Positions 6,382 to 13,010 of a DNA stretch of 64,000 bases are shown here, piece after piece. Within the stretch, counting starts at the first letter, position 1. Each line of letters opens with the position of its first letter. The position numbers and the translations under genes were made by a program. The DNA comes from Aliarcobacter sp. GTDB lineage: Bacteria; Campylobacterota; Campylobacteria; Campylobacterales; Arcobacteraceae. Under the pieces are notes generated by a model that was given only the letters and a program-made list of their open reading frames with translations, ran no database searches and was not told where the DNA came from. Location: the NCBI GenBank assembly GCA_028689025.1, contig JAQTXA010000001.1:62001-126000 (forward strand). The letters run 5' to 3'.

Positions 6382-7209
6382 ATGCAAATAAATTCAAACT
6401 CTGCCATAAACCAAAATGTTTATCTAAATCTTAATCAGAGCCTAAATAGGATTGCAACTGGTGTTGAGTTAAATCAATCTAGTGATAATGCATCTGGTTT
6501 ATCAATTGCAAATAATTTATTAACTCAATCAAATGGTTATTCACAAGCTATTGAAAATGCTAATTCTGCTGTTGCTGCAACACAAATTGCAACAGGTGCA
6601 ACTAATGAACAATCTAAAATTTTAGATAATGTAAGAGAAAAACTTCTTCAAGCTTCAACTGATACTACAAGTCAAGAAGGAAGAACTGCATTATTAAAAG
6701 ATATTCAATCTCAACTGGATCAATTTAATCAAATAGCTAGTGGAACAAACTATAATGGTCAGTCATTACTTCAAAAAAGTTCGACTGATAACTCAGCTTC
6801 AGATGTTCAACAATATCAAACTGGATTAAATGGTAATGATATAATTGATACTTCAAGTGTTCAATCAAATACTCAAGGATTAGGTTTAACTAACCTTGTA
6901 AATCAAGATACAACAACTTTTTCTTCAGCAGATGCAAGAAATTTCCTAGATAATGTAGATAAAGCGATGAGTGGATTGAATGATATAAGAAGTGGATTTG
7001 GCTCAACTCAGAATCAACTTGAAAGTTCAAGTAGAAATCTAGTTTCTCAACAAACAAGTACTTTAAATGCAGCTTCTTTATTTGAAACAAATTATGCAAA
7101 AGAGACTAGTAATTTTTCTAAACAAAATATTCTTTCTCAAATTGGTGCATATGGACAAGCGCAAGCTAATAATATAAATCAACAATCTGTGTTAAGACTT
7201 CTTAGCTAA
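6382..7209 (+). CDS. Flagellin (short form)
   Basis: The 275-residue protein has the conserved N-terminal D0/D1 helices (LNQSLNRIATGVELNQSSDN, ASGLSIANNL) and C-terminal D1/D0 helices (QTSTLNAASLFETNYAKETS, ending VLRLLS). Only a short serine/asparagine/glutamine-rich stretch lies between, so surface D2/D3 domains are essentially absent, as in other Arcobacter flagellins. It polymerises into the flagellar filament after type III export and has no signal peptide. The ATG follows AAAAGGAG. The gene is monocistronic and ends in a strong terminator. Whether it is the major or minor flagellin cannot be told. Confidence 0.93.
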   Translation: MQINSNSAINQNVYLNLNQSLNRIATGVELNQSSDNASGLSIANNLLTQSNGYSQAIENANSAVAATQIATGATNEQSKILDNVREKLLQASTDTTSQEGRTALLKDIQSQLDQFNQIASGTNYNGQSLLQKSSTDNSASDVQQYQTGLNGNDIIDTSSVQSNTQGLGLTNLVNQDTTTFSSADARNFLDNVDKAMSGLNDIRSGFGSTQNQLESSSRNLVSQQTSTLNAASLFETNYAKETSNFSKQNILSQIGAYGQAQANNINQQSVLRLLS

Positions 7210-7223
7210 AAAGATTTATGCAT

Positions 7224-7257
7224 AAAAAAAGGTTCAAGATAAACTTGAACCTTTTTT
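7224..7257. terminator. Bidirectional rho-independent terminator
   Basis: The arms AAAGGTTCAAG and CTTGAACCTTT form a perfect hairpin with a short ATAAA loop, flanked by A and T runs. It lies 14 bases after the flagellin stop and directly against the stop of the convergent glycine-zipper gene, so it can serve both. Confidence 0.92.
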
Positions 7258-7699
7258 ATCTTCCATGTCCATCTCTATGATGGTGGTGATCACGACGTTC
7301 ATTGTAATAATATCTGTTAGGGTATCTATCATAATTTTGATAAATAATTGTTACTGGTTGAGGAGCTGGTCTTCTTTCATATACTGTGTATCTGTCATAT
7401 CCATCATAATCATCATAATAATTGTTTCTTACATAAGTTGTTGATCTTTCGTAATTGTTATTATAAGAGTTATTGTCATAATAACCATTTGAATAAGGTG
7501 GTGTTCTAGAACTATTTGCGATACCAGCACCTAAAAGTCCACCGGCAACCCTTGCAACGTCTCTTCCATTTCCTTTTCCAACTTGATTACCAATTGCAAC
7601 CCCAATAGTAGCCCCAACTAATGTATCAAGACCTATTGAGTTATCCATAGCAAAAACTAAAGAACTTGAAATAATAAGTGTTGCTAATATTTTTTTCAT
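7256..7699 (-). CDS. Secreted glycine-zipper 2TM protein with Tyr/His-rich tail
   Basis: The 147-residue protein has a signal peptide (MKKILATLIISSSLVFA), then a glycine-zipper segment (LVGATIGVAIGNQVGKGNGR, GGLLGAGIA) typical of outer-membrane or periplasmic proteins of the Rick_17kDa/2TM family. The C-terminal half is low-complexity, rich in Asn, Tyr and Arg, ending in a histidine cluster (DHHHHRDGHGR) that could bind metal. Its promoter carries a match to the Campylobacter DccR box (separate entry), suggesting control by the neighbouring two-component system. The molecular role is unknown. Confidence 0.82.
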   Translation of the reverse strand: MKKILATLIISSSLVFAMDNSIGLDTLVGATIGVAIGNQVGKGNGRDVARVAGGLLGAGIANSSRTPPYSNGYYDNNSYNNNYERSTTYVRNNYYDDYDGYDRYTVYERRPAPQPVTIIYQNYDRYPNRYYYNERRDHHHHRDGHGR

Positions 7700-7744
7700 T
7701 TTATAACTCCTGTTATATTTTATATTGAAAGTATAAATCTTGAT

Positions 7745-7762
7745 TGTGAAAGTATTGTGAAT
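7745..7762 (-). promoter_or_regulatory. Putative DccR-type operator
   Basis: On the minus strand the sequence reads ATTCAC-AATACT-TTCACA, matching the C. jejuni DccR consensus WTTCAC-N6-TTCACW at every defined position. A TATACT -10 candidate lies downstream at 7735-7730, so the repeat covers the -35 region, as described for DccR promoters. The controlled gene is the glycine-zipper protein. The site is adjacent to a DccRS-like operon. Confidence 0.6.
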
Positions 7763-7768
7763 ATAAAA

Positions 7769-8113
7769 CTATTTTAATTTACCGAAAATTTTATATTTGT
7801 CCCAATATCCATCTATCGCATTTTCTAATTTAGAATCATTTAAATTTGTCTTCTTTTTTACCCCAAATCTTGTAATAAATGATTCAGTCATTACCGTTTT
7901 TTCAGAAGATGGATTTTTTAGATAATCAAACATTGCTTTTTTAACATCTCTTTCACTACTATATTTTAACAAATATTTATAAAAATACTTATCAATACTA
8001 ACTGGTAATTGTGAATGACATTGAACACAATTTAAATTATATATTGAAGAATCGTTATTATCTGCATTTAAAGACAAAACCATTAAGATAATTAAAAAAA
8101 GTTTTTTTACCAT
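7769..8113 (-). CDS. Periplasmic single-heme cytochrome c-like protein
   Basis: The 114-residue protein has a signal peptide (MVKKLFLIILMVLSLNA) and one heme c binding motif, CVQCH, near residue 34. The rest is charged and not recognisable as a classic cytochrome c fold; a possible distal methionine occurs in AVMTES-like context near residue 76. Its start overlaps the stop of the histidine kinase gene by seven bases, so it is the last cistron of the two-component operon. It may be a redox-linked sensor accessory or target of that system; this is inference from position. Confidence 0.75.
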   Translation of the reverse strand: MVKKLFLIILMVLSLNADNNDSSIYNLNCVQCHSQLPVSIDKYFYKYLLKYSSERDVKKAMFDYLKNPSSEKTVMTESFITRFGVKKKTNLNDSKLENAIDGYWDKYKIFGKLK

Positions 8114-9294
8114 TTTATTTCCACTTTAGTCCCTACATTTATTTCAGATTTAACATCTATTTTTAAATCATACTCTTTTGCTATCAAAGAGACAATATTT
8201 AAACCAATACCAAATCCACCTACACTTTTATCAAATCTTGAATATCTTTCAAAAAGAGTTTCTAAATTCTCTTTTGCAATCCCTTTTCCACTATCTTCAA
8301 TACTTAAAATATTATCATCTAAATTTACTTTTATAAAACCTGCAATTTTATTATATTTAATTGCATTTGATAAAATATTATCTATTAATTTAGTTATCTT
8401 TTTCATATCACAAATCAAAAAAACATCATCTTCAATGTTTATATCAAAGCTTATTTTTTTCATTGTTGCAATACTATTAAAATACTCAATTCTTTGTCTT
8501 AATACATTTGAAAGATTAATCTCTTCATTATTTGAAATTATTTGATTATTCAGTGTCACAAAAGTCAAATCTTCATAAATATTTGAAATTGTTTTTGCAC
8601 CTATTTCAATTCTATTTATTTTTTTTAATAATCTCTCATCTAAACTACTTTTATCAATCATCTCAATATTTGTAATAATTGCAGTCACCGGTGTATTTAA
8701 CTCATGGGTTGTATCTTTTATAAACCTATCCAATAGATGTAACGCATCTCTCATTGGCTTTAGAAACAGTCTTAAAATAAAATATCCTAAAACCATCATA
8801 AATATAAAAGCCAACAAAAAACTTATAGCAATTTTATGCCTGATTTGCTCAAACCAAACTCCATCATCTGGAACTTCAACAATAATAAATTTGCTTCCCA
8901 AATAGTAAGATTCTGGCTCTTTTATAAAATGTATTTGATTATGACTTAGATAAATAACTTCATCTAAACTTACATCTTTTGATTTAAGAGTTGAAAAAAT
9001 CTTTTTTTTATCACTATCAAAAATAGCTGATTCAAATCGTTCATCTCTTGGATAGATATTATTTTTATCGATATTAACATGTAAATCTTTTAATCTGAAA
9101 ATTAAATCATTTGAATAACTTTGTAAAATTTGCCTTTTTTCTTGCAACATTAAATCTTTTTGGAATTTGTAGTATAAAAAAGATACTACACCCAAAATTA
9201 CTAAAACAAGAAAGGAATATAAAAAACTAAAACTTAAAAGAGTTCTAGTTTCACTTTTGGTTAAATCTATACCCGAGTTTTTTAAGACTAACAA
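8107..9294 (-). CDS. Sensor histidine kinase (DccS/CrdS-like)
   Basis: The 395-residue protein has a membrane segment at about residues 20-43, a periplasmic loop, a second segment at about 155-178, then an H-box (FIKDTTHELNTPVTAI) and HATPase motifs: N-box LIDNILSNAIKYN, G1 IEDSGKGI, and GGFGIGLNIV. The start is a TTG: no ATG or GTG precedes the first membrane segment, and AGGA sits about ten bases upstream. It overlaps the response regulator gene by 44 bases. Sequence style and operon resemble Campylobacter DccS and Helicobacter CrdS; the signal sensed is unknown. Confidence 0.88.
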   Translation of the reverse strand: MLVLKNSGIDLTKSETRTLLSFSFLYSFLVLVILGVVSFLYYKFQKDLMLQEKRQILQSYSNDLIFRLKDLHVNIDKNNIYPRDERFESAIFDSDKKKIFSTLKSKDVSLDEVIYLSHNQIHFIKEPESYYLGSKFIIVEVPDDGVWFEQIRHKIAISFLLAFIFMMVLGYFILRLFLKPMRDALHLLDRFIKDTTHELNTPVTAIITNIEMIDKSSLDERLLKKINRIEIGAKTISNIYEDLTFVTLNNQIISNNEEINLSNVLRQRIEYFNSIATMKKISFDINIEDDVFLICDMKKITKLIDNILSNAIKYNKIAGFIKVNLDDNILSIEDSGKGIAKENLETLFERYSRFDKSVGGFGIGLNIVSLIAKEYDLKIDVKSEINVGTKVEIKW

Positions 9295-9919
9295 TTTTAT
9301 CTTTTCCTAATATTTTTCTAAGATTTTTTATATAAGTTCTTAAAGAGTTATCACTATACTCTTCATCATAATCCCAAACATAATCGTAAATTCTATCATG
9401 AACTAAAAGTTCATTTGGATGTTGTAAAAAGAATTTCAGAAGTTTTGTCTCTTTTAAATTTAATTTTATTATCTCTTCACCATCTTTTAACTCACTAGAT
9501 ATTGAATTAAAAGTTATAGTTTCAGTTATGTTTATACTCTCACCTTTATGAGAAAATTCTCTTTTTAATATTGTTTGCACTCGTATTAAAAGTTCTTTTA
9601 ACTCAAAAGGTTTTCTAATATAATCATCACAGCCACTTGAATATCCTTGCTCTAATGAATCCATAGAGTTTAATGATGTAATAAAAATAGCAGGCGTATT
9701 ATTATTTTCATTTCTAACTTCTTTTAATACTTCAAAACCACTTTTAATTGGTACGTTTACATCAAGTAATAATAAATCAAAAGAGTTTTCATAAATAGAT
9801 GTTAGTGCTTCTTCACCATCATAAACACAAATTACCTCAAAACCTTTTTCTTCCAAATATTCACAAACTGTTTCACTTAAATTTAAGTCATCTTCTAATA
9901 ATAATATTTTAGTTTTCAT
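9251..9919 (-). CDS. OmpR-family response regulator (DccR/CrdR-like)
   Basis: The 222-residue protein has a receiver domain with the acidic pair ED at 9-10, phospho-acceptor D53 in LLLLDVNVP, Thr/Ser in IFITS, and Lys in IRKPFE. The C-terminal winged helix includes TKLLKFFLQHPN and SLRTYIKNLRKILG. It is the cognate partner of the overlapping kinase gene. Its ATG overlaps the stop of the DUF1104 gene by 11 bases. A matching operator lies in front of the nearby glycine-zipper gene. Confidence 0.92.
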   Translation of the reverse strand: MKTKILLLEDDLNLSETVCEYLEEKGFEVICVYDGEEALTSIYENSFDLLLLDVNVPIKSGFEVLKEVRNENNNTPAIFITSLNSMDSLEQGYSSGCDDYIRKPFELKELLIRVQTILKREFSHKGESINITETITFNSISSELKDGEEIIKLNLKETKLLKFFLQHPNELLVHDRIYDYVWDYDEEYSDNSLRTYIKNLRKILGKDKIVSLKKLGYRFNQK

Positions 9920-10139
9920 TTTGTTTTAACTCTTCTATACTTTGTTCAAATTGAGCTTTTTCATCTTGACTCATAGTTGGAATTCTAGAATTCAACTCTT
10001 TAATAAATTGAGCTTTGTTTTCATCTTTTACATAACCAATAATTGCTATTAGTTCTTGAGTACTCATTTCTGAATAATCTTCTTGTTTTGCAAAAACAAA
10101 AGTGAACAATAAAAGGAATATCAGGGCAATTTTTTTCAT
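9909..10139 (-). CDS. Small periplasmic DUF1104-like protein
   Basis: The 76-residue precursor has a clear signal peptide (MKKIALIFLLLFTFVFA) and a short helical mature part (EMSTQELIAIIGYV, QAFEQSIEEL-like) typical of Campylobacterota DUF1104 proteins. It heads the four-gene operon with the response regulator, kinase and cytochrome. Small periplasmic proteins of this type beside two-component systems may bind a ligand or report envelope state, but the role is not established. The promoter region is the 89-base gap to the divergent lipoprotein gene. Confidence 0.75.
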   Translation of the reverse strand: MKKIALIFLLLFTFVFAKQEDYSEMSTQELIAIIGYVKDENKAQFIKELNSRIPTMSQDEKAQFEQSIEELKQNEN

Positions 10140-10258
10140 TTTTAAACTCTATTTTTTATTTTGATTGTACCATATTAAATGTATAATAATTGTAGATAAA
10201 TCCACTTTAAGCTTTCAGTAAATAATTTTTGACTAAAATCACTTCAAAAAAGAGTTTA

Positions 10259-10558
10259 ATGTTTAAACACATATTTCTAATTTCAGGTTTTACTCTTATT
10301 CTTTGTGGTTGCTTTGGAAAAAGTAAAGAAGAAAAGTGGACTGCTTTTATCTATCCAGATAAAGAAAATAATAAAAAAAATATAAAAAGTCCAATGACTT
10401 TCCCCTCAATTGAAGAGTGTAAAAAAAGTTCTATTTTAGAAATAAAAAAACAAAACTTAGAAAATATTGCCATATTCAAATGTGGTTTAAATTGTAAATA
10501 TCACGATGGAATGAAAATAGAAATATGCCAAGAGATGTTATCATCTAATGACAAATAG
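10259..10558 (+). CDS. Putative small lipoprotein of unknown function
   Basis: I start at the ATG giving MFKHIFLISGFTLILCGCF, a short charged N-terminus, hydrophobic core and lipobox-like LCGC. The track start ten codons upstream is a TTG that would bury the signal. The mature part of about 80 residues is lysine-rich and contains further cysteines (EECKKSS, CGLNCKYHDGM, EICQEM), suggesting disulfides or metal binding. No family recognised. It precedes the regulator gene by 24 bases and is probably co-transcribed with it. Confidence 0.6.
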   Translation: MFKHIFLISGFTLILCGCFGKSKEEKWTAFIYPDKENNKKNIKSPMTFPSIEECKKSSILEIKKQNLENIAIFKCGLNCKYHDGMKIEICQEMLSSNDK

Positions 10559-10582: not shown

Positions 10583-11245
10583 ATGAAAGCGTTGAGATTT
10601 TTAAATATTTGTTATGATATAAAAAGTATCAATAACGAATTTAGTGATTATATCTCCTCACATATTGATAACTTTTTAGAATATAAACATCACGATGAAT
10701 TAATTGAATTAATAAATACAAATGATATTCATTTTGTTATAACTCAATATAACTTTGAACTTTTAAAAAAGATTAGAGTTTTAAATAAACAAATACAAAT
10801 TATTGCTCTTCAAGATGAGTTAAATCATACACATTTATTAGAGAGTTTAGAGCTTAAACATGTAAAGTTTATACAAAATTTAGATTGCGTGAATACTTTT
10901 ATTGATACATTAAAAGAGTGCGTAAAAATTACAGATTCAAATAAATCTAACATTATTAATTTAGGAAATGATTTTGTTTATGATAAATATAATAAATATC
11001 TATTCAAAAATAACAATGTTGTTTCATTAACAAAAAAAGAACTTACATTTTTAGATTTTTTACTAAATAACCATGACTGTCCAATAAGTTATGAAAAAAT
11101 CAATATGAATATTTGGGATGGTTCTATGACTCATGATTCTTTAAGGTCATTAATAAAAGAATTAAGAAAAAAAACCTATAAAGAACTTATAAAAAATGTG
11201 TCAGGAATAGGATATAGAGTAGATATTCTAGCTCAATATGAATGA
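10583..11245 (+). CDS. OmpR-type winged-helix regulator with degenerate receiver
   Basis: The C-terminal 90 residues form an OmpR/PhoB-type winged helix (LTKKELTFLDFLLNN, SLRSLIKELRKKT, VSGIGYRVD). The N-terminal 120 residues have receiver-like length but lack the phospho-acceptor aspartate: the expected strand reads HFVITQYNFE. It is therefore probably a phosphorylation-independent or atypical regulator. No partner kinase gene is adjacent. It overlaps the ABC exporter gene by eight bases, so it may control that transporter. Confidence 0.75.
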   Translation: MKALRFLNICYDIKSINNEFSDYISSHIDNFLEYKHHDELIELINTNDIHFVITQYNFELLKKIRVLNKQIQIIALQDELNHTHLLESLELKHVKFIQNLDCVNTFIDTLKECVKITDSNKSNIINLGNDFVYDKYNKYLFKNNNVVSLTKKELTFLDFLLNNHDCPISYEKINMNIWDGSMTHDSLRSLIKELRKKTYKELIKNVSGIGYRVDILAQYE

Positions 11246-13010
11246 AAAAATCTCTTTAAAATATATTTTTAAACTTTTACTAGATAATAAAAAAACACTT
11301 ATTATTGGTCAAATAATTACAATAATTGCGATATTAGTAAGTGTTCCTATTCCCCTACTTTTGCCTTTATTAGTTGATGAAGTTCTACTAAAAAAGCCTG
11401 ATTTTTTTGTAAATAATATAAATGAATTTATTGGTAGTGGCAATGCTTTTTATTATATTGCTATTGTTACATTTATAGTTTTATTTCTTCGTGTGATTTA
11501 TTTTGTTTTTGGTGTAATTATTACAAAACTATTTACAAAAATCTCAAAATATGTAACCTTTAAAATAAGAGAAAAACTTTTAAATCATCTTGAACTTGTT
11601 AATATGAATGAATATGAGAGTTTGGGTTCTGGTTCAATTAGTGCAAATTTAGTAACTGATGTAAATACTTTAGATAATTTTATAGTTTCAATTGCTAGTA
11701 AATTTATCTCTTCAATCTTAACTTTAATAGCTGTTGCAATTGTAATAATTGCAATTCACCCAATTTTAGGTCTTATGATTTTATTTATTCAACCAATTAT
11801 TATGATTCTTTCAAAAAAAATCTCTAAAAAAACTGGTGAATTAAAAAAAGAGGAAAACAAAGCCATTGAAGAGTTTCAAAATAATATAAATGAAACTTTG
11901 GACTTATTTGGACAGATAAAAGCTAGTAATAAAGAGAGTTTCTTTTTTAATGAATCAATAAATAAAGCCACAAATATTCAAAAAACTTCCAATGAATTTA
12001 ATTATAAAAGTGTAGCTTATGAGAGATTTTCTTTTACTATTTTTTTAATTGCTTTTGAGATTTTTAGAGCCGTTGGACTTTTACTTGTAGTTTATAGTGA
12101 TTTATCCATTGGTTTAATGTTTGCCATGTTTGGATATATTTGGTTTATTATGACCCCTGTTCAAGATATTTTAACTATTCAATACTCATTTGCAAGTGCA
12201 AATGCAGCAATTATTAGAATAAATAAAATCTTAGATTTAAAAAAAGAGAAAAATGGAACTTTAAAATTAGACTCTACTTCTAAAAAAGTTGATATTTCTA
12301 TACAAAACTTGAGTTTTTATTACAATGAAGAAAAAGAGGTTTTAAAAAATATCTCTTTTAATATAAAATCAGGTGAAAAAGTGGCAATCATAGGTGCAAG
12401 TGGAAGTGGGAAAACGACAATTGCAAATATAATTTCAGGTTTTTATTCTAAAAATTCTGGAGATATTTTATATAACAGTATCAGTATTGATGAATTAAAT
12501 AGACAAAGTTTAAGAGAAAATATCTTTTTGGTTTTACAAATGCCAATTTTGTTTAATAATAGTTTACGATTTAATATTACAATGGGAAATATAAATATAA
12601 GCGATGAAGAGATTATCAAAGCTTTAAAAATTGCACAACTTTATGATACAGTTGAAAATATGTCAAATGGCCTTGAAACACTTGTTGGTAAACATGGAAT
12701 AAGATTAAGTGGTGGACAACGCCAAAGATTATCAATAGCTAGAATGATTATTGCAAATCCTGCTGTTGTTATATTTGATGAATCAACTTCAGCTTTAGAT
12801 GTACATACAGAAGTAAAACTATTTAGTGATTTAGAAGAGTTTTTAAAAGAAAAAACTGTTATAACAATAGCTCACAGATTAAGTACCGTAAAAAATGCAG
12901 ATATGATATATGTAATAGATGATGGAAAACTTGTACAAAGTGGAAATCATAAAGAGTTAGAAGAACAAGAGGGACACTATTTAGAGTTCGTTAAGAAACA
13001 ACTAATTTAA
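11238..13010 (+). CDS. ABC exporter, fused permease and ATPase (MsbA/MDR-type half transporter)
   Basis: The 590-residue protein has an N-terminal six-helix membrane domain (about 20-310) and a C-terminal ATPase. The ATPase shows Walker A GASGSGKTT, signature LSGGQRQRLSIARM, Walker B VVIFDESTSALD and the H-loop TIAHRLS. It works as a homodimer or heterodimer to export lipids, peptides or drugs. Substrate cannot be read from sequence. There is no peptidase C39 domain. It is translationally coupled to the upstream regulator gene. Confidence 0.9.
   Translation: MNEKISLKYIFKLLLDNKKTLIIGQIITIIAILVSVPIPLLLPLLVDEVLLKKPDFFVNNINEFIGSGNAFYYIAIVTFIVLFLRVIYFVFGVIITKLFTKISKYVTFKIREKLLNHLELVNMNEYESLGSGSISANLVTDVNTLDNFIVSIASKFISSILTLIAVAIVIIAIHPILGLMILFIQPIIMILSKKISKKTGELKKEENKAIEEFQNNINETLDLFGQIKASNKESFFFNESINKATNIQKTSNEFNYKSVAYERFSFTIFLIAFEIFRAVGLLLVVYSDLSIGLMFAMFGYIWFIMTPVQDILTIQYSFASANAAIIRINKILDLKKEKNGTLKLDSTSKKVDISIQNLSFYYNEEKEVLKNISFNIKSGEKVAIIGASGSGKTTIANIISGFYSKNSGDILYNSISIDELNRQSLRENIFLVLQMPILFNNSLRFNITMGNINISDEEIIKALKIAQLYDTVENMSNGLETLVGKHGIRLSGGQRQRLSIARMIIANPAVVIFDESTSALDVHTEVKLFSDLEEFLKEKTVITIAHRLSTVKNADMIYVIDDGKLVQSGNHKELEEQEGHYLEFVKKQLI

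Follow-up and report, generated by a model that had tools for sequence, protein, structure and literature searches.

A conserved direct-repeat element beside a DccRS-related two-component operon in Aliarcobacter, a probable operator for a glycine-zipper gene and a small envelope regulon

The window analysed here, a stretch of 64,000 nucleotides (64 kb) from the 2.7-Mb genome of an Aliarcobacter species, carries on its minus strand a compact two-component operon followed by a gene for a glycine-zipper protein. First in the operon is a gene for a small exported protein of the DUF1104 family (9909-10139; PF06518, E 6.4e-7). The Helicobacter pylori protein HP0721 (PDB 2xrh) belongs to this family; its function is given as unknown, and no two-component link was found for it in the literature searched. 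That the DUF1104 protein might be a Spy/CpxP-like periplasmic adaptor was unsupported, as a fold search gave HP0721 alone, and weakly (E 1.3, probability 0.89). Next in the operon come an OmpR/PhoB-type response regulator (9251-9919), whose receiver (PF00072) and winged-helix Trans_reg_C (PF00486) domains both score above the cut-off and which resembles DrrD (1kgs) over its full length, with Mycobacterium tuberculosis PhoP also among its nearest solved relatives; a sensor histidine kinase (8107-9294; HisKA and HATPase_c domains) with two membrane helices and a periplasmic region between them, the structure model of which (mean pLDDT 63) is too poor for naming the sensor domain; and, last in the operon, a small exported protein (7769-8113) that bears a single CxxCH haem motif, CVQCH, recognised by sequence and synteny and referred to below as the cytochrome. 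Beyond it on the same strand lies the gene for a glycine-zipper 2TM protein of 147 aa (7256-7699; PF05433, E 2.7e-7), with a signal-peptide-like start and a Tyr/Arg/His-rich tail, preceded by a ribosome-binding site, AGGAGT (7706-7711, minus strand), that is invariant across the alignment. No terminator-like site was found between the operon and this gene. The initial annotation also likened the operon to CrdRS, the H. pylori copper system with a CrdA-type copper gene; no copper gene was seen beside the operon in the window.

Other genes adjoin this group. A short flagellin-like protein of 275 aa (6382-7209, plus strand) is encoded convergently with the glycine-zipper gene and is kept there, with an inverted repeat at about 7228-7259 between the two. 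Divergent from the operon is a small lipoprotein-like gene without known family (10229-10558, plus strand), found near the operon in much of Arcobacteraceae and missing in some Aliarcobacter. Also divergent, the neighbour at 10583-11245 (plus strand) specifies a DNA-binding protein whose C-terminal domain is of OmpR type and in which no receiver domain was matched; it is evolving faster than the adjacent regulator, is absent from this position in part of the genus, and is directly followed by an ABC exporter (11238-13010).

The spacer between the cytochrome and glycine-zipper genes holds, at 7745-7762 on the minus strand, ATTCACAATACTTTCACA, the sole exact match in the 64-kb window to WTTCAC-N6-TTCACW, the motif reportedly described for the DccRS system of Campylobacter jejuni. 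The initial annotation had its sequence, strand and coordinates right, and comparison with relatives extends it to an operator-like direct repeat, TTCACAAT-ACT-TTCACAAT (7743-7761, minus strand), with an 11-bp period and a score of 16/16 against the consensus from those relatives, lying 7 nt past the stop codon of the cytochrome gene and 44 nt ahead of the start codon of the glycine-zipper gene. The placing of the motif over the -35 region of a promoter with TATACT as its -10 element is likewise borne out by the spacing: TATACT (7730-7735, minus strand) is separated by exactly 7 nt from the second TTCACAAT, which puts the box at about -38 to -20, over the -35 region. No recognisable -35 hexamer is listed for this -10 element, as is expected of an activator-dependent promoter, though -35 elements are generally weak in this phylum.

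Taken alone, the short motif is weak evidence, because it occurs at chance frequency genome-wide. When the window was shuffled 100 times, 8 of the shuffles had at least one exact WTTCACN6TTCACW (mean 0.09 per window), and the genome has four exact sites, about the number expected by chance from the window rate, so that no enrichment was evident when the motif was counted by itself over the genome; two of the other three sites are intragenic and one lies ahead of dnaA. The extended box TTCACAAT-N3-TTCACAAT has no second genomic copy at 0 or 1 mismatch, and box and -10 element together, TTCACAAT-N3-TTCACAAT-N7-TATACT (7730-7761), are unique in the genome within 3 mismatches (searched with N7-TATAMT). 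The weight of the argument rests on conservation.

At 66 regulator-kinase-cytochrome loci, the first 150 nt past the cytochrome stop codon were scored for the box at a threshold of at least 13/16. It was found in 52 of the 66, a count to be read with the scoring consensus having come from the same sites and with the loci sharing ancestry and hence not being independent; neither the reversed pattern nor the opposite strand, used as controls, reached 13/16 at any of the 66. The strongest -10-like hexamer stands exactly N7 downstream in 41 of the 52 box loci, which span at least seven families. The claim of co-conservation beyond Campylobacter holds in that, outside Aliarcobacter, six or more other families of the order have the box at the same locus position and at a fixed distance from the -10 element. 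Most Aliarcobacter genomes have a regulator orthologue with 75-97% identity, and operon synteny extends through Arcobacteraceae into further families of the order. The gene downstream encodes a glycine-zipper protein in most Arcobacteraceae and elsewhere other exported proteins, often a small cytochrome c; the box is present in 37 of 39 loci with a glycine-zipper gene nearby and in 14 of 26 without one, mostly ahead of other exported genes such as small cytochromes c. In an Aliarcobacter subclade represented by six loci, neither glycine-zipper gene nor box lies beside the operon, while one subclade retains the regulator despite the loss of both glycine-zipper genes, which counts against the model proposed below. 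Across Aliarcobacter the box is conserved before glycine-zipper orthologues, and since lack of such conservation had been named as refuting it, this supports the main interpretation of the initial annotation.

The operon's own promoter (10140-10228) had been described as free of such a box. It instead contains a degenerate one, TCTACAATTATTATACATT, at 10178-10196 (minus strand), which relatives carry at the corresponding position. It is followed after N8 by TACAAT (10164-10169, minus strand), a -10 element with an upstream TATG (extended -10). In some relatives the box comes nearer to the consensus (e.g. TTCACAATTCCTCCACAAT in one). When the -10 spacing was imposed on the score, 43 of 57 operon promoters reached at least 11, whereas the reversed pattern did so in 12 of 57. 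Its conservation makes autoregulation of the operon plausible, as is stated for dccR in C. jejuni (PMC7118207).

A search of 120 genomes for the box within 1 mismatch found intergenic copies before several kinds of gene. Four precede glycine-zipper-type genes unlinked to the regulator (family calls made by inspection, and for two also by overlap with glycine-zipper search matches), five precede small cytochromes c, and three precede the DUF1104-regulator operon in other genera. The notion that the conserved stretch is a mere constitutive promoter, or a motif arisen by chance in AT-rich sequence, could appeal to the genome-wide frequency of the short motif; yet the conservation is specific to strand and spacing with controls at zero, the full element is unique, and boxes recur before unlinked homologous genes, which leaves that notion with hardly any credibility. 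By these comparisons the box is a real binding-site-like element and not a chance motif. Near-perfect matches within a purB-like gene, at the same antisense place in six genomes, were set aside as intragenic and probably reflect coding constraint. A box with 1 mismatch and TACTAT at N7 also precedes a gene for a small lipoprotein in two Aliarcobacter genomes and may mark an additional target.

Within the source genome, near-matches scoring 14/16 to the box consensus were examined. Two intergenic ones precede genes for exported proteins that are predicted to be further targets, a glycine-zipper/OmpA lipoprotein (locus L124, 1501-2293) and a Tyr/Arg-rich exported protein (locus L125, 1501-2136); a third has no gene in its direction. 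In promoters of the lipoprotein gene a degenerate box persists at N8 from the -10 element, and ATCACAATTTATTCACACT or a sequence near it precedes 11 of 11 homologues of the Tyr/Arg-rich gene with N7 spacing. Orthologues of the window's glycine-zipper gene occur in 21 of 31 Aliarcobacter genomes, and the lipoprotein gene is found in the same 21 and absent from the same 10, a pattern that follows clades. Three of the 31 genomes have a distant paralogue of the regulator only, and in these there is no glycine-zipper gene and no intergenic box.

The last observation bears on whether the box could be the operator of a paralogous OmpR-type regulator, its adjacency to the operon being incidental. Sixteen regulators in the source genome match at E<=1e-20, and the recognition helix is common to paralogues, both of which would allow this. 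But adjacency in 52/66 loci over this range of families is hard to attribute to accident, genomes with paralogues and without this regulator have neither the intergenic box nor the glycine-zipper gene, and the operon's own promoter has a box, so that we consider a paralogue unlikely to be the cognate protein. The TTCAC repeats might alternatively be DnaA boxes, bound by DnaA instead of the response regulator. The epsilonproteobacterial DnaA core is TTCAC, with the consensus HTWTTCACW in A. butzleri (PMC5043019); the first half of the box, ATATTCACA, fits this consensus, and exact matches to the motif precede dnaA both in the source genome and in another family. The second half, ACTTTCACA, does not fit it, however, and relatives often alter the TTCAC core of the first half (to TACAC or TCCAC) while keeping the AAT tails, the 11-bp phasing and the N7 step to the -10 element, none of which DnaA boxes need. 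The site moreover goes together with the regulator operon and the genes it is taken to control, whereas epsilonproteobacterial DnaA boxes are recognised as clusters of HTWTTCACW near dnaA, a pattern from which a box with one fitting half and a core changed in relatives departs; a DnaA site is thus very improbable.

Binding by the adjacent regulator leads to the question of its kinship with DccR. DccRS is not known outside Campylobacter, where it is related to colonisation and has few targets; its traits include phosphotransfer from DccS to DccR and activation in the stationary growth phase. The closest Campylobacteraceae regulators include one that adjoins hemerythrin and groEL genes, as dccRS does on the C. 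jejuni map, and that we take to be DccR. In a first tree that included other Campylobacter paralogues, these closest regulators and that of the window fell in one clade; in a second, which took in Arcobacter paralogues as well, the Campylobacter clade again joined the window's clade and most Arcobacter paralogues stayed outside, on joining branches (89/87 and 81/90) below the strong-support mark. The clade holding DccR also has other Campylobacter paralogues, so co-orthology is the closest relation at stake, and with this moderate tree support the window's regulator is probably a co-orthologue of Campylobacter DccR, in keeping with the initial description of the operon as DccRS-like. Both are OmpR-type regulators, with 49-51% identity, and their recognition helices are nearly the same (SLRTYIKNLRK in the window's regulator, SLRAYVKNLRK in DccR); several paralogues are alike in this respect, so that the helix sequence does not prove regulator specificity.

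The promoters, too, agree in design. Among intergenic WTTCACN6TTCACW sites of ten Campylobacter genomes, 18 of 20 have TAnnnT 10 or 11 nt past the second TTCAC, and none of the 10 intragenic sites does at this distance; in both groups of bacteria the motif thus lies over the -35 region of targets with equal spacing to the -10 element. By inspection, the Campylobacter box-bearing genes code for PepSY-like, MacA-like and further periplasmic proteins, exported or membrane-bound, and no glycine-zipper or cytochrome gene was seen among them. The likeness to known DccR targets that had been suggested for the glycine-zipper gene therefore extends to the class of protein, exported or membrane in both sets, and not to the genes themselves. 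The systems differ further in that Campylobacter dccRS adjoins hemerythrin and groEL (groESL) and is without DUF1104 or cytochrome genes, unlike the DUF1104-RR-HK-cytochrome-glycine zipper layout of Aliarcobacter, and in that the conserved AAT extension belongs to the Aliarcobacter box. Some Campylobacter genomes (three loci) have, beside DccRS, a second system of small exported protein, regulator and kinase that resembles the DUF1104-first layout. DccRS was reportedly described by Wosten et al. (2010, J Bacteriol 192:2729), and its regulon is summarised in PMC7118207 and PMC9449129; in the literature searched, no paper giving the DccR motif was found, nor one linking Arcobacter with glycine-zipper proteins.

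In PhoB-type class II activation, two 11-bp direct repeats lie over the -35 region at a fixed step from the -10 element. The box has this layout, on which basis the adjacent regulator is proposed to bind it and activate. The 19-bp direct repeat is very probably the operator of this regulator (9251-9919), driving the glycine-zipper gene, its proposed main target, and a small envelope regulon. The kinase would phosphorylate the regulator, and a phosphorylated dimer would occupy the two 11-bp half-sites in head-to-tail orientation, take over the role of a -35 element and recruit RNA polymerase to the -10 element seven nt downstream. The glycine-zipper promoter would be activated strongly and the operon itself more weakly, the weaker box at its promoter serving autoregulation, while weaker boxes elsewhere in the genome would bring two more exported proteins into the regulon. 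As a guess, the DUF1104 and CxxCH proteins may modulate the kinase. E. coli PhoB with its Pho box and other OmpR/PhoB activators share the pair of 11-bp direct repeats replacing the -35 element and the fixed -10 step, but the E. coli system differs in half-site, signal and targets, and no PhoR/Pst context exists here; the M. tuberculosis PhoP box shares a half-site with TCACA and the 11-bp repeat period, but PhoP is a distant regulator with another regulon.

Together with its operator, the DccRS-related system appears to be an old and widespread envelope-gene switch in Campylobacterota. It is conceivable, though we hold it doubtful, that the DccR-type operator is the signature of a regulon ancestral to Campylobacterota, its core made up of small c-type cytochromes, envelope proteins of the glycine-zipper kind and the regulator's own DUF1104-RR-HK-cytochrome operon, in which the DUF1104 protein and the cytochrome would act as periplasmic accessory sensors, Campylobacter DccRS then being a derived remnant that lacks them and whose targets have changed. 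With its promoter geometry fixed across the order, the conserved operator allows a regulon to be predicted for free-living as well as host-associated relatives. The accessory pair, a DUF1104 protein and a haem protein, gives a hint of what the kinase may sense, and the glycine-zipper promoter would offer a simple reporter for seeking the signal in a laboratory strain.
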